NCBI GenBank assembly: GCA_012103255.1
Contig: WLXD01000001.1
Span: 1,129,501 to 1,193,500 of the forward strand
DNA from: Acidobacteriota bacterium
GTDB lineage: Bacteria; Acidobacteriota; UBA890; WLXD01
Length of the DNA: 64,000 nt
Direction: 5' to 3'
This document shows positions 42,891 through 64,000 of this stretch, piece after piece. The position numbers were made by a program, and so were the translations under genes. Each line of letters opens with the position of its first letter. The first letter of the stretch is position 1. Under the pieces are notes generated by a model. That model made no database searches. It had not been told where the DNA came from and saw only the letters and a program-made list of their open reading frames with translations.

Positions 42891-44384
42891 ATGCCGACAG
42901 CAACACGGAACGCCGGGTCTCCGACGCGGCGGGCCGCGCGTAAGCCCCACCTGCGACTCGTCGTAGCCCTGCCATTCGTGACCGGGTTGTTGGCGTTTGC
43001 CGTGGGTGTGTACGCGTTTCAGATCGGTCGCTACGACGCGACCGCACAGATGTCGCCCGAGCATGCAGCGCGAGTTTGGGCAACGCTCCCAGACTCGTGG
43101 TTCTGGGTTGTGGCGGTGGCCTGCTTCGGGGCCATCATCGGGTTGGCGATCGCACTGGCCTTCACCAGGCAGCTCCACACGCTGGCGAAGCGGACAGAGT
43201 TCCTGGCGCGCCGCAACTACAACTACCCAGTCGAACTCGAGGCGGACGGCGAGGTTGCTCCGCTCGTTAGCGCCATCAACGAGTTGCTGGAGTCGGTCCG
43301 CGACTACGCGCGTCACTCTGTCGCGGATGGCATGATCTCCTTCGGTAGGGACGGTCGCGTGCTGTCCATCAACCCGCGGGCCGCGGTTGCCATCGGAGTG
43401 GACGCGGACGGAGTGATCGGCCAGAGCTTCCGACGACTGATTCCCGACGTTCCCGAGAACCACCGACTCAAGACCGCTTTCCTCCAGGCCTTCGATCGCG
43501 GCCAGGCTTTCGACGTGCGAGAGCTCCGCTGGGTGAACACGCGTGGCCAGCACATGCAGGTCGACCTGCAAGGCACGGTTCTCGCGGGCGAGGAGCCGAT
43601 CATCTCGGTGCAGGTCGTCTTTGAACGTGCTCCTGATCTTGAAAGCGTGCAGCGAGAGGTGAGTCGCGCCCACCGATTGATGGTGGTGGGTGGCTTCTCC
43701 GCCGAACTAGCTCACGAGATCCGCAATCCCCTTAGCTCTGTTTTCGGACTCGTCGACTTGCTCCACGAACGTCTACCGGATGGCGACGAAGGGCATGCGC
43801 ACCTCGATGTTCTCGCCCGCGCTGCCGGAAGGATCGAAGCTCTCGTAAAGCAGTTGCTCGATCTCGTGCCTACCGAGATTCAGGACCTCGAGGAACGTGA
43901 TCTCAACGGGCTCGTCCACGAGGCGGTCGAGTTCGCGGTCGTTGCCGAAGCGCCCGGGCGCGTTCAGATCCACCAGGAATATGCCGAGGGCCTGGCCGTA
44001 TGTAACGTCGACGCCGACCGGATTACGCGCTTGTTCGACAACCTGCTGCGCAACGCACTTGCCCACACGCCAGACGGCGGGACGATCAGCATCGCAACCG
44101 GGCAGAACGACGCCACGCTATTCGTTCGCATCCACAACACGGGGTCGTTCGTTGCGCTCGAGGATCGCGAGCGCATCTTCCAGCCCTTCGTTTCCGGTCG
44201 CGGCACGGGCACCGGCCTTGGCCTCGCGATCGCGCAGCAGATTGCGTACGCGCACGGCGGCACCATCGAGGTGGAGAGTTCTCGCGACGACGGAACGGAG
44301 TTCACGGTCACGCTGCCAGTCCGACAGGTGTTGTTTGCCGATCCGACTCCGGCACCGACCGAAGCGTTGGCGGGGGCGGCCTGA
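42891..44384 (+). CDS. PAS-containing sensor histidine kinase (NtrB/PilS-like)
   Basis: Two TM helices, HAMP/PAS region, AELAHEIRNPLSSVFGLVDLL H-box, NLLRNALAHTPDGGTISI, GTGTGLGLAIAQQI. Confidence 0.93.
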   Translation: MPTATRNAGSPTRRAARKPHLRLVVALPFVTGLLAFAVGVYAFQIGRYDATAQMSPEHAARVWATLPDSWFWVVAVACFGAIIGLAIALAFTRQLHTLAKRTEFLARRNYNYPVELEADGEVAPLVSAINELLESVRDYARHSVADGMISFGRDGRVLSINPRAAVAIGVDADGVIGQSFRRLIPDVPENHRLKTAFLQAFDRGQAFDVRELRWVNTRGQHMQVDLQGTVLAGEEPIISVQVVFERAPDLESVQREVSRAHRLMVVGGFSAELAHEIRNPLSSVFGLVDLLHERLPDGDEGHAHLDVLARAAGRIEALVKQLLDLVPTEIQDLEERDLNGLVHEAVEFAVVAEAPGRVQIHQEYAEGLAVCNVDADRITRLFDNLLRNALAHTPDGGTISIATGQNDATLFVRIHNTGSFVALEDRERIFQPFVSGRGTGTGLGLAIAQQIAYAHGGTIEVESSRDDGTEFTVTLPVRQVLFADPTPAPTEALAGAA

Positions 44385-45769
44385 TGAAGAACCGCCGTCT
44401 GCTGATCATCGATGACGACCCGGAGGTGCGCTACACCTTGCGAGCGGCCCTCGCCAAAGAGGGTATGGAGATCGATGAGGCGGAAAGCGGGGAGGTTGGG
44501 CTCGCGCAGCTCGACGAGCAGTCCTACGACTTTGTCCTGCTCGACCACCGACTCCCCGACACAGAGGGAATTGACCTCCTGCCAGACATACGGCGCCGGC
44601 AGCCGCACGTATTGGCCATCATGATGACCGCCTACGGCACCCGGAGGACGGCGGTCGAGGCGGTTCGTCGCGGGGCACACGACTTCTTCACCAAGCCGAT
44701 CAAGCTCAACGAACTCCGCGTCGTGATGGCGCGCGCGCTGGAGCGGCGACGATTGGCTCGCGAGGGCGACCGCCTGAGGGCGCGCGGCACCAATGAAGCG
44801 CGCTTCGGCGGCATCATCGGCAAGTCGGCAGCTATGCGCGACGTGTTTAGTACGCTCGGGAAAGTGGTCGCGGCGGATGCCACTGTCCTCGTTCTCGGGG
44901 AAAGCGGTACAGGTAAGGAACTGGTCGCCGAGGCGATCCACTCGCAGGGGAGCCGGGCCGAGGGTCCATTCGTGAAGCTCAACTGCGTCGCGATTCCTCA
45001 GACCCTGCTCGAGAGTGAGCTCTTCGGTCACGAGAAGGGCGCTTTTACCGGCGCCGCCGAACGCAAGGTTGGAAAGTTCGAGCTTGCCGATGGCGGCACG
45101 ATTCTTCTGGACGAGATCGGCGACATGAGCCTGGAGACCCAGGCCAAGATTCTCCGGGTCTTGCAAGAGCGCGAGTTCGAACGTGTCGGCGGTCTCGCTC
45201 CCGTCAACGTTGATGTTCGGATCGTAGCCGCCACCAATCGTGATCTCGCCCAGGATGTGCGCGAGGGCAAGTTTCGCGAAGATCTCTACTTCCGCCTGAA
45301 CGTGGTGACAGTAAACCTGCCGCCGCTGCGGGAGCGTCCTGTCGATATTCCGATGCTGGCCGAGCACTTCATGCGTGAGTTTGCGGATAGACACGGCAAG
45401 CAGCTGGAAGGCATTGCGCCGGCGGCTGCCGACGCTCTCTGCGAGTTCCACTGGCCAGGCAATGTCCGGCAGCTACGACACGCGGTGGAGCGTGCCGTGA
45501 TCTGGAGTGACGGCAAGGAACTCGAGACCGACGATCTGCCGAGCGAGGTGCTGAGCGGATCGGTAGTGGCGGCCACCGCACTCAAGACGGGGACGGACGA
45601 CACGCTTCCGGACACCATGGAACGCATCGAGCGGCGGATCCTGATCGACACACTGCGTAGAGCCGGCGGCGTGCAGGCCACAGCCGCCCGACGGCTTGGG
45701 ATCTCGGAGCGTTCGATGTGGCACAAGGTCAAGAAGCACGACATCGACGTCGACCGGTTGAAGGGCTAA
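44384..45769 (+). CDS. sigma54-dependent NtrC-family response regulator
   Basis: REC domain; ESGTGKELVAEAIH, GAFTGA sigma54-contact loop, Fis-type C-terminal HTH (LRRAGGVQATAARRLGISERSMWHKVKKH). Confidence 0.96.
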   Translation: MKNRRLLIIDDDPEVRYTLRAALAKEGMEIDEAESGEVGLAQLDEQSYDFVLLDHRLPDTEGIDLLPDIRRRQPHVLAIMMTAYGTRRTAVEAVRRGAHDFFTKPIKLNELRVVMARALERRRLAREGDRLRARGTNEARFGGIIGKSAAMRDVFSTLGKVVAADATVLVLGESGTGKELVAEAIHSQGSRAEGPFVKLNCVAIPQTLLESELFGHEKGAFTGAAERKVGKFELADGGTILLDEIGDMSLETQAKILRVLQEREFERVGGLAPVNVDVRIVAATNRDLAQDVREGKFREDLYFRLNVVTVNLPPLRERPVDIPMLAEHFMREFADRHGKQLEGIAPAAADALCEFHWPGNVRQLRHAVERAVIWSDGKELETDDLPSEVLSGSVVAATALKTGTDDTLPDTMERIERRILIDTLRRAGGVQATAARRLGISERSMWHKVKKHDIDVDRLKG

Positions 45770-46235
45770 CTCATCCAGGCGGTCTTATCCGCCGCCACCC
45801 GCCGCCGCGACCACGGTCGGGTCGGCTGGGCCTCTAGTGTCCCCGACGTCTTGATCGCCGGCAGCGCACGTCCTCTGCGAGACACCGCACCACTACACCG
45901 CACCGTCTCGTGGACGCGACTGGCCCGATGGGGGCGCCTGCGTCGATCGTCGATAGAAGCACTTGCTGATCCAACGCCACATGTAGGGCTTGCTACAAAG
46001 TTTGTAGACAATCCGTTAAGTCTTTTTTTTTGAGCAGTTTACGTCTCTAGTCCGTTCCCTGAAAGCAACGGACACCGGTCCTCCTACAGGTCCTGTTGCT
46101 TCTGTAGTTGGCCTCAACTGTCCGCGGCGGCCTAAATGGGTGCTGCGATCCCAGAAAATTAAGTCGTTTGTTTGCAGCCATTTGAGCGGTTCCTGGCCGT
46201 CGGGATCGGCACGATAGGCCAGCGACTGCCCGAGT

Positions 46236-46251
46236 TGGCACGGCGGTTGCT
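46236..46251 (+). promoter_or_regulatory. sigma54 promoter
   Basis: TGGCACG-GCGG-TTGCT, exact match to TGGCACG-N4-TTGCW, ~34 bp upstream of the 46285 start and ~80 bp upstream of the 46333 start. Confidence 0.82.
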
Positions 46252-46284
46252 CTATTACCGCCCCGTCGGCACAAGTCGACGAGC

Positions 46285-63170: not shown

Positions 63171-63211
63171 GAACGCTCTCGGCGCCTACGGCGCCATCCC
63201 CGGTCACGCAG

Positions 63212-63238
63212 GCTCGGACGCGGATGCGTCCGGGCTTT
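63212..63238 (+). terminator. intrinsic terminator-like hairpin
   Basis: GCTCGGACGC-ggat-GCGTCCGGGC-TTT. Confidence 0.6.
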
Positions 63239-63456
63239 CGTGCGTCCGGGACATGGCCGGTCGAGACGCCCCCAGAGGCGGCCACAGGACCCTGAATCCG
63301 TCCAGTGACGAACTCCAGTGGACAGGAGCGGACAGGCGCGGCCATGGGCCTTTGCTTTGTACGCGGCGCGCACGCAAAGTGATCTAACGATCAACGGCCA
63401 GTCTAGATGCCCTGATCGGGATACCACTCGCCGAGCCTGGGAGGAGGAACGACGGG

Positions 63457-64000
63457 ATGGCAGCGCATTGTGACGCGCGACGGCAAGCAGGATTCACGCT
63501 TGTCGAGGTGACGATCATTCTGCTGGTCCTCGTGATCCTCTCAACGATCATGTTGCCGCAGCTGGGCAACTTCAATCGTCTGGCCCGCCGCGTGACGGCG
63601 GTAGAGGATGTGGGCGCGATCTGCGCGTCGGTCAAGAAGTGGCTCGACGAGGTGATGCTCAGCGGCCCGTGGGTGCAGCCCGGCGGCGGCTTGCAGAACC
63701 CTCAGGATCCGATCGGCCTTCTTGTAGGCCCCGGCACCACGCCGGTGATCGGTAACGGCCTGGCTGGAGCGACGCCTCGCGCCTCGAACGACATCTGGGA
63801 TGCGCCGGCCGTGGCTATCGATGCCTTCACGGTGTCCACCGACGGGGTCGTGCCACAGACGGTCGCCTTCGATACCGATCTGCTCTTTCACCACCTGCAG
63901 ATGAACAACCCGCAGGGCATTTCGGTGGACATCGAGGATCGGTACAAGAACATTGCGGAGCTCCCCGAAGTAGGCGCCTGGTTCGGCTGGCGTGGCCCCT
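63457..64000 (+). CDS. pseudopilin-like protein 9, truncated by window edge
   Basis: My translation from ATG 63457: MAAHCDARRQAGFTLVEVTIILLVLVILSTIMLPQLGNFNRLARRVTAVEDVGAIC...ELPEVGAWFGWRGP; no stop before window end. Confidence 0.86.
   Translation, partial: MAAHCDARRQAGFTLVEVTIILLVLVILSTIMLPQLGNFNRLARRVTAVEDVGAICASVKKWLDEVMLSGPWVQPGGGLQNPQDPIGLLVGPGTTPVIGNGLAGATPRASNDIWDAPAVAIDAFTVSTDGVVPQTVAFDTDLLFHHLQMNNPQGISVDIEDRYKNIAELPEVGAWFGWRGP

Follow-up and report, generated by a model that had tools for sequence, protein, structure and literature searches.

The window analysed here, 64,000 bp of a 4.8-Mb Acidobacteriota genome (C1:1129501-1193500), a placement also suggested by its ADOP-type permeases and kinases, carries from position 42891 to its right end an ordered array of GspG-like pseudopilin genes and their regulators, interrupted by a block of genes that includes a reverse transcriptase (RT). 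The locus is very probably a conserved type IV filament apparatus, similar to a type II secretion system (T2SS) or mannose-sensitive haemagglutinin (MSHA) pilus, that has dedicated regulation and an enlarged complement of GspG-type pseudopilins; the RT block is an insertion rather than a part of it. The components named by a first-pass annotation of the sequence (a two-component system, a sigma54 site, mini-helix-turn-helix (mini-HTH) genes, nine pseudopilins, the RT, a tRNA repeat and a radical SAM gene) all proved to be present at or near the positions assigned to them, although that annotation missed both the lineage-specific nature of the insertion at 53.1-60.9 kb and an assembly machine just right of the window. 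Screening of the window with Rfam and ARAGORN gave no matches. Ten pseudopilin genes make up the array, nine inside the window and the tenth just outside:

46876..47511, plus strand: pil1, GspG-like pseudopilin (T2SSG Pfam match, alignment, own clade)
47508..48344, plus strand: pil2, GspG-like pseudopilin (4-nt overlap with pil1; Pfam, own clade)
48341..49348, plus strand: pil3, GspG-like pseudopilin (alignment, own clade)
49257..50009, plus strand: pil4, GspG-like pseudopilin (longest open reading frame (ORF) starts at 49167; alignment, own clade)
50006..50662, plus strand: pil5, GspG-like pseudopilin (alignment, own clade)
52010..52837, plus strand: pil6, GspG-like pseudopilin (NCBIfam gspG match; 81% to G002)
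61147..61902, plus strand: pil7, GspG-like pseudopilin (NCBIfam match; structure model)
62391..63170, plus strand: pil8, GspG-like pseudopilin (82% to G002)
63457..64000, plus strand, extending to C1:1193742: pil9, GspG-like pseudopilin (ORF, own clade)
C1:1194158-1195312, minus strand: pil10, tenth prepilin, beyond the window's right end

Stop-to-start overlaps place pil1-5 in one operon, and alignment reveals DPWGxxY and SAGPD motifs common to the array pilins. For comparison we used three members of the same family (G001, G002 and G003), together with metagenome contigs carrying homologous arrays. A pilin profile applied at E <= 1e-15 had matches in all four genomes of the family and in none of five from the sister family. 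In G002, the histidine kinase, response regulator, HTHa, HTHb, pil1-5, HTHc-e, pil6, pil7 and pil8 follow one another in order on a single contig; G003 and G001 show the identical order, in pieces, and amino acid identities between the window array and these three genomes are ~57-97%. The array is also found on contigs L174 (histidine kinase to pil7), L190 and L172, and a compact version on L192/193 passes through pil6 and pil10 into GldA. In a tree of 36 pilins, sequences group by array position and not by genome, in clades that are mostly highly supported, with positions orthologous across two genera. Because each position forms its own orthologous clade, the pilins are old, fixed paralogs rather than a diversifying repertoire, and because orthologs are closer than paralogs, their divergent central regions reflect old specialisation. 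As far as the compared sequences tell, these roughly ten pilins are not being shuffled between positions, and neither the ortholog comparison nor the tree revealed hypervariation confined to a target gene among the window's pilins.

The gap between pil6 and pil7 spans 8309 bp here, versus 212 bp in G002, 365 bp in G001, 175 bp on L174 and 462 bp on L169. The RT, radical SAM, SpoIIE, PadR and FtsX genes evidently constitute a lineage-specific 8.3-kb insertion (~53.1-60.9 kb), pil6 and pil7 being neighbours elsewhere. The insertion and its left border comprise:

52969..53104, plus strand: long hairpin after pil6, 31-nt arms (-88 kcal/mol, z = -6.0), the last native feature before the insertion
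53132..53185, plus strand: tRNA-Val(CAC) 3' fragment, left cassette end (98% over 54 nt to the tRNA at C4:316454)
53301..53691, no strand assigned: stretch directly downstream of the RT (mismatched to genomic copy B at 44%, against a 5% difference for the RT itself)
53722..54672, minus strand: UG4-family reverse transcriptase, FMDD active site (Pfam; PADLOC RT_UG4 E=2e-117)
54719..54734, plus strand: truncated 16-nt tRNA-Val fragment, right cassette end
54748..56319, minus strand: B12-binding/radical SAM protein (Pfam and NCBIfam)
56538..57602, minus strand: SpoIIE/PP2C phosphatase (Pfam)
57828..58166, plus strand: PadR regulator (Pfam)
58163..60901, plus strand: MacB/FtsX permease, ADOP-like (Pfam)

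No UG4 RT was found in the eight other genomes of the order, nor in any homologous array found. Because the insertion occurs here only, because the array is intact without the RT, and because two more RT copies lie far from pilins, we conclude that the RT does not belong to the pilin system. The radical SAM gene was not found in G002 or G003, and has a 62% relative in G001. In G002 and L174, a strong hairpin of unrelated sequence likewise lies directly 3' of pil6. An imperfect inverted repeat (57765-57825) just upstream of the PadR gene is possibly a PadR operator.

Regulatory genes and sites are distributed through the array as follows:

42891..44384, plus strand: sensor histidine kinase with PAS, HisKA and HATPase domains (Pfam; orthologs 76-77% in G002 and L174)
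44384..45769, plus strand: NtrC-type sigma54 activator with REC, Sigma54_activat/AAA+ and Fis HTH domains (Pfam; orthologs 72-85% in three genomes)
45993..46007, no strand assigned: palindrome CTACAAAGTTTGTAG, 229 bp upstream of the sigma54 site, a probable upstream activating sequence with presumptive activator binding
46236..46251, plus strand: sigma54 -24/-12 site TGGCACGGCGGTTGCT, 34 bp before HTHa (homologous place in three relatives)
46285..46548, plus strand: HTHa, BldC-like HTH_17 regulator (Pfam; nearest solved relatives 6ama/6amk over 59 residues)
46576..46839, plus strand: HTHb, BldC-like HTH_17 regulator, an HTHa paralog (ortholog 76-78% in relatives)
50757..50770, plus strand: box GGACAGCCGCGGCC before HTHc
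50861..51097, plus strand: HTHc mini-regulator (ortholog 79-86% in relatives)
51193..51471, plus strand: HTHd mini-regulator (orthologs in relatives)
51572..51799, plus strand: HTHe mini-regulator (orthologs in relatives)
51951..51964, plus strand: box GGACATGCGCGGCC before pil6 (equivalent place in G002 and L174)
61033..61046, plus strand: box GGACAGGAGCGGCC before pil7 (present in L169 too)
62196..62209, plus strand: box TGACAGGTGCGGCC before pil8 (conserved place in relatives)
63330..63343, plus strand: box GGACAGGCGCGGCC before pil9, in tandem with GGACAGGAGC

The strict sigma54 pattern used (TGGCAC-N5-TTGCW) occurs eight times in the 4.8 Mb, and the window site aligns in four genomes, which is more than chance would give; with a promoter pattern upstream and a dedicated activator gene beside it, the early unit has the make-up of a predicted sigma54-dependent operon. 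The palindrome is present in a single copy genome-wide, and is aligned and conserved in G001, G002 and G003. A second element, the box GGACAGNNGCGGCC, precedes HTHc, pil6 (with a one-base variant), pil7, pil8, pil9 and pil10, at equivalent places in G002, G003, L169, L172, L173 and L174 where those genes exist; its core GACAGNNGCGGCC is found 15 times genome-wide, five of them in the 24-kb locus (0.07 expected). The conserved palindrome upstream of the sigma54 site, together with the box before the later units, supports a two-tier regulation, a model drawn from this layout of sites. Gene order, its conservation, the insertion and the positions of the sites are observed; which protein would bind which site, the timing, and a function in secretion or as a pilus are inferred. 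An envelope-facing histidine kinase would phosphorylate the NtrC-type activator, which would bind the palindrome and fire the sigma54 promoter of an early operon (HTHa, HTHb and pil1-5); BldC-like mini-HTH proteins would then act at the boxes before HTHc and pil6-10, switching on the later pilins as separate units, and the machine encoded alongside (ATPase, platform, PilM/O/P-like, secretin and GspA/B-like proteins) would assemble the pilins. BldC, the small MerR-like developmental regulator of Streptomyces, resembles HTHa through the match to 6ama/6amk (which we take to be BldC-DNA complexes; the database title of the match is ‘putative DNA-binding protein’), and the boxes include tandem direct repeats. 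In contrast to BldC, there are five paralogs in one pilin locus here, their sequence identity to it is low, and their DNA binding is putative. Orphan pilins of the same family at C2:893851-894678 and C6:454720-455544, away from the array, have no GGACAGNNGCGGCC box just upstream.

Beyond the window's right end come pil10, a GldA/F/G-type ABC system, T2SSE, T2SSF and a pilin, followed by genes for PilM/O/P-like, secretin-like, GspA-like AAA and GspB-like proteins and a lytic transglycosylase; these machine genes are syntenic with contig 48 of G002 (C48), at 48-88% identity. A GspE-type ATPase (PF00437, 6.5e-119) and a GspF platform protein (PF00482, 4e-46) thus adjoin the array, as in a T2SS, and the secretin candidate is a 583-aa lipoprotein-like ORF with a secretin-like N-domain (80% to G002). 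The likeness to a T2SS or MSHA-type IV pilus extends to the PilM/O/P-like, GspA/MshM-like AAA and GspB-like genes and to the association of such a machine with GspG-like pseudopilins bearing the DPWGxxY motif; unlike those systems, the locus has about ten ordered GspG-like paralogs rather than one major pseudopilin, Gld-type ABC genes within the cluster, and its own two-component, sigma54 and mini-HTH control. The array would represent a set of ordered, specialised pseudopilins on a secretion or pilus machine under a two-tier switch, an arrangement for which a literature search found no description.

Several observations weigh against this reading of the locus. The T2SSG Pfam scores of the array pilins are weak, the TIGR01710 (gspG) match (2.8e-9) falls under its cut-off, and the top PDB match of the pil7 model (predicted local distance difference test score, pLDDT, 81.5) in Foldseek, GspG 3gn9, is weak and not significant alone. 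Compared with G002, a one-base frameshift divides the T2SSE ATPase ORF in two (L124:9226-11008 = C1:1199225-1201007); the machine may be broken in this genome, or the shift may stem from a sequencing error. Finally, the relatives are draft metagenome-assembled genomes (71-92% complete), in which whole-genome absence of the RT is not proof, unlike the four intact pil6-pil7 junctions, which are direct evidence.

The RT itself matches the PADLOC RT_UG4 model with 389.5 bits over positions 2-299 of 307, placing it in that family, and its catalytic FMDD, nearly invariant in the RT alignment, retains the DD pair. UG4 RTs are found near fimbrial genes in 66% of cases (myRT, PMC8934634). On plasmids, the UG4 RT stands at or near the end of fimbrial operons in Serratia, Lelliottia, Escherichia, Aeromonas, Pantoea, Burkholderia and Salmonella, is convergent to the fimbrial operon in Photobacterium, and also lies beside inverse autotransporters in Salmonella. 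Of 48 UG4-like loci from GTDB, 42 have a convergent downstream gene, and in 18 of the 48 it has a predicted signal peptide (background 41/194; a crude predictor, applied to phylogenetically non-independent loci); exported products include PEP-CTERM, collagen-like and ice-binding-like proteins. Chaperone-usher queries had no matches in 80 GTDB loci, so the fimbrial link is a feature of plasmids and of Enterobacterales and their kin rather than of the whole UG4 family; no prepilin genes were found in 658 kb around 80 RT relatives, and a search for UG4 in phages gave no match. The window RT, which shares with other UG4 RTs the model match of a family that neighbours fimbrial genes, differs from them in lying in Acidobacteriota-like DNA, in a tRNA-Val-bounded cassette, in three copies, and in not being fixed in an operon with its neighbour. 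At loci L010, L012, L018, L021, L048 and L062, from several phyla, the UG4-like RT converges with a gene for an exported protein of PEP-CTERM type or with a similar C-terminal anchor.

These figures for orientation and export, within the limits just given for predictor and loci, would fit an RT cassette that settled behind pil6 because UG4 elements tend toward the 3' ends of exported-protein genes, with pil6 as a possible chance or selected target rather than an ancestral one. RT copy C, which also faces a secreted-protein gene, agrees with this, but copy B has no such neighbour, and the window RT is separated from pil6 by the ends of its own cassette; we consider such targeting unlikely.

In the favoured account, the five genes arrived at the pil6-pil7 junction in this lineage alone, and the RT came within a small mobile cassette bordered by tRNA-Val 3' fragments. 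A 16-bp direct repeat, GTGGAAGTCGGAGGTT, at 53151 and 54719 is part of the tRNA-Val(CAC) 3' fragment. The genome holds three RT copies, the other two at C1:717 and 734 kb, far from pilins; all three adjoin tRNA-Val(CAC) 3' fragments (the tRNA gene being on contig 4), and copy C is flanked by them on both sides. In G003, an RT-less cassette of 589 bp, carrying a SnoaL-like ORF, lies precisely at the tRNA-Val 3' end (L139, C56, 140-739), and G002 has an empty tRNA-Val site (L140, C101). The end of the G003 cassette shares with the RT cassette at C1:734193-734378 a ~190-bp segment, 90% identical, including CCTGTGACAAATCCTGTGACAAT-like repeats. Cassettes bounded by tRNA 3' fragments recall tycheposons and other tRNA-associated islands; unlike these, those described here are very small (0.6-1.7 kb), have no recombinase inside, and are arrayed away from any intact tRNA gene, and no PF00589 tyrosine recombinase gene lies near any tRNA-Val fragment, as one would in a tRNA-integrating island. 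Each fragment beside an RT copy is antisense to the RT, as tRNA-primed cDNA would leave it, and no integrase is nearby; yet a tRNA-Val-primed retroelement, as opposed to a cassette that a tyrosine recombinase mobilises in trans, is quite improbable, given that the fragments reach from the anticodon loop to slightly beyond the 3' end like ordinary tRNA att sites, that the G003 cassette, which has no RT, is placed exactly at tRNA-Val, and that UG4 relatives elsewhere have no tRNA fragments. Halves of tRNAs (3' part) as a general UG4 feature were rejected, none lying beside the relatives except for one intact tRNA-Arg upstream of one RT.

The region C1:715600-736000 (L001, L003, L129, L132) holds an array of tRNA-Val(CAC) 3' fragments (minus strand), several paired with tRNA-Met fragments (plus strand), within a repeated module of ~210-300 bp. 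One or two genes lie between modules, among them a hybrid kinase, Ser/Thr kinases, secreted paralogs and RTs, so that the region resembles an integron-like cassette array; no recombinase is visible. Integron attC-like repeats considered in L018, L025 and L010 were rejected, none being attC-like: the L018 repeats copy a gene's 3' end and those of L025 a gene-internal piece.

As for the array, an ordinary T2SS with recent tandem gspG duplications and no special regulation would account for the GspG-like character of the pilins and for the 79-90% DNA identity among pil6-9 over their first ~170 nt, but is decidedly unlikely in view of positions that are orthologous across two genera and of the conserved sigma54 site, palindrome, mini-HTH genes and boxes. 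A working role for the RT within the pilin system, as a diversifier of the paralogous pseudopilins, is hardly credible: the RT is convergent with pil6, and UG4 RTs elsewhere adjoin fimbrial or secreted-protein genes (PMC8934634) with variation in the adjacent gene, but no other copy of the array has the RT, pil6, 885 bp from it, is as conserved as its neighbours (81% vs 74-82%), the locus has no template repeat, the pilin orthologs keep their positions, and two RT copies lie elsewhere.

In the first-pass account, a sigma54- and two-component-controlled pseudopilin array with mini-HTH genes was combined with an RT into a single system. The array is real, recurrent and co-ordered, in three related genomes and on metagenome contigs. 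Differential pilin expression survives in part, the dedicated cis-sites being suited to it for the later pilins, whereas neither the accompanying control by the RT nor the suggested diversification found support; pilins group by position across genomes, and pil1-5 overlap as one operon. Nor does the RT qualify as a member: the order's eight other genomes and all the homologous arrays found have none, two of its three copies lie elsewhere, and the expected co-occurrence across genomes is lacking: the array recurs, never with the RT family, whose 80 relatives have no prepilin nearby. An RT gained separately from a pilin array that is otherwise conserved is what the first-pass account itself had named as a refutation, and this is the case here; recognising the RT as an insertion prevents a mistaken account of the locus as RT-driven pilin variation.

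The array half of that account is right, and better supported than it knew. Wrong as the RT half was for this locus, the RT family may do elsewhere what it supposed. This side result is the weightier one, as it concerns an orphan RT family hitherto noted for its position near fimbrial genes, with substitutions concentrated in the adjacent gene. Two E. albertii plasmids (L223/L224) have 12 substitutions between them over 7.8 kb, every one of them 113-310 bp beyond the RT stop codon and within the following gene, whose product begins with a signal peptide. Among six E. coli plasmids (L158/L226/L227/L231-L233), all three substitution sites are just after the RT, one of them with three alleles (T, A, G), and the remaining four differences are indels or end effects. 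Changes in the adhesin-like next gene, such as N/S/I and D/H or G/H, agree with AAY codons randomised in the manner of diversity-generating retroelements (DGRs). In the E. albertii pair L162/L222 just one of five differences is after the RT, and plasmid pairs from S. Javiana, Photobacterium and Vibrio have too few differences to inform. Among nine plasmids, RT gene identity is 87-100%, and similarity of the gene that follows is detectable only where the plasmids are near-identical; such divergence could be explained by gene replacement and selection, the clustered point changes less easily.

DGR-clade RTs carry an SQ-type motif. The substitutions on UG4 plasmids resemble DGR activity in clustering in an adjacent adhesin gene and favouring A-containing sites; the UG4 systems differ in that no template repeat was found and in the window RT's motif, RGCSLSP. 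A template repeat for the variable plasmid gene was absent from a 42.5-kb UG4 plasmid, and none with A-specific differences was detected in the window, where self-similar DNA is pilin-pilin or HTH-HTH, plus one hairpin. We tentatively propose, while thinking it somewhat more apt to be wrong than right, that UG4 RTs are a second diversity-generating lineage outside the DGR clade, hypermutating the directly downstream stretch (usually an exported or fimbrial adhesin gene) with no separate template repeat, and that the window holds a mobile, tRNA-bounded member that landed by a pilin array. UG4 may be a diversity generator, and nothing shows its action on the window's pilins; the clustered substitutions provide a concrete, testable function for the family. 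Between genomic copies A and B, the divergent region has no A-site bias (67 of 170 mismatches involve A), which neither supports nor excludes A-mutagenesis. P0002, from a twin assembly of the same species, differs from copy C (C1:734387-735640) at three of 416 residues (339, 343 and 344); assembly error being possible, all three fall within six codons past the RT core, and each is explicable by changes at A positions.

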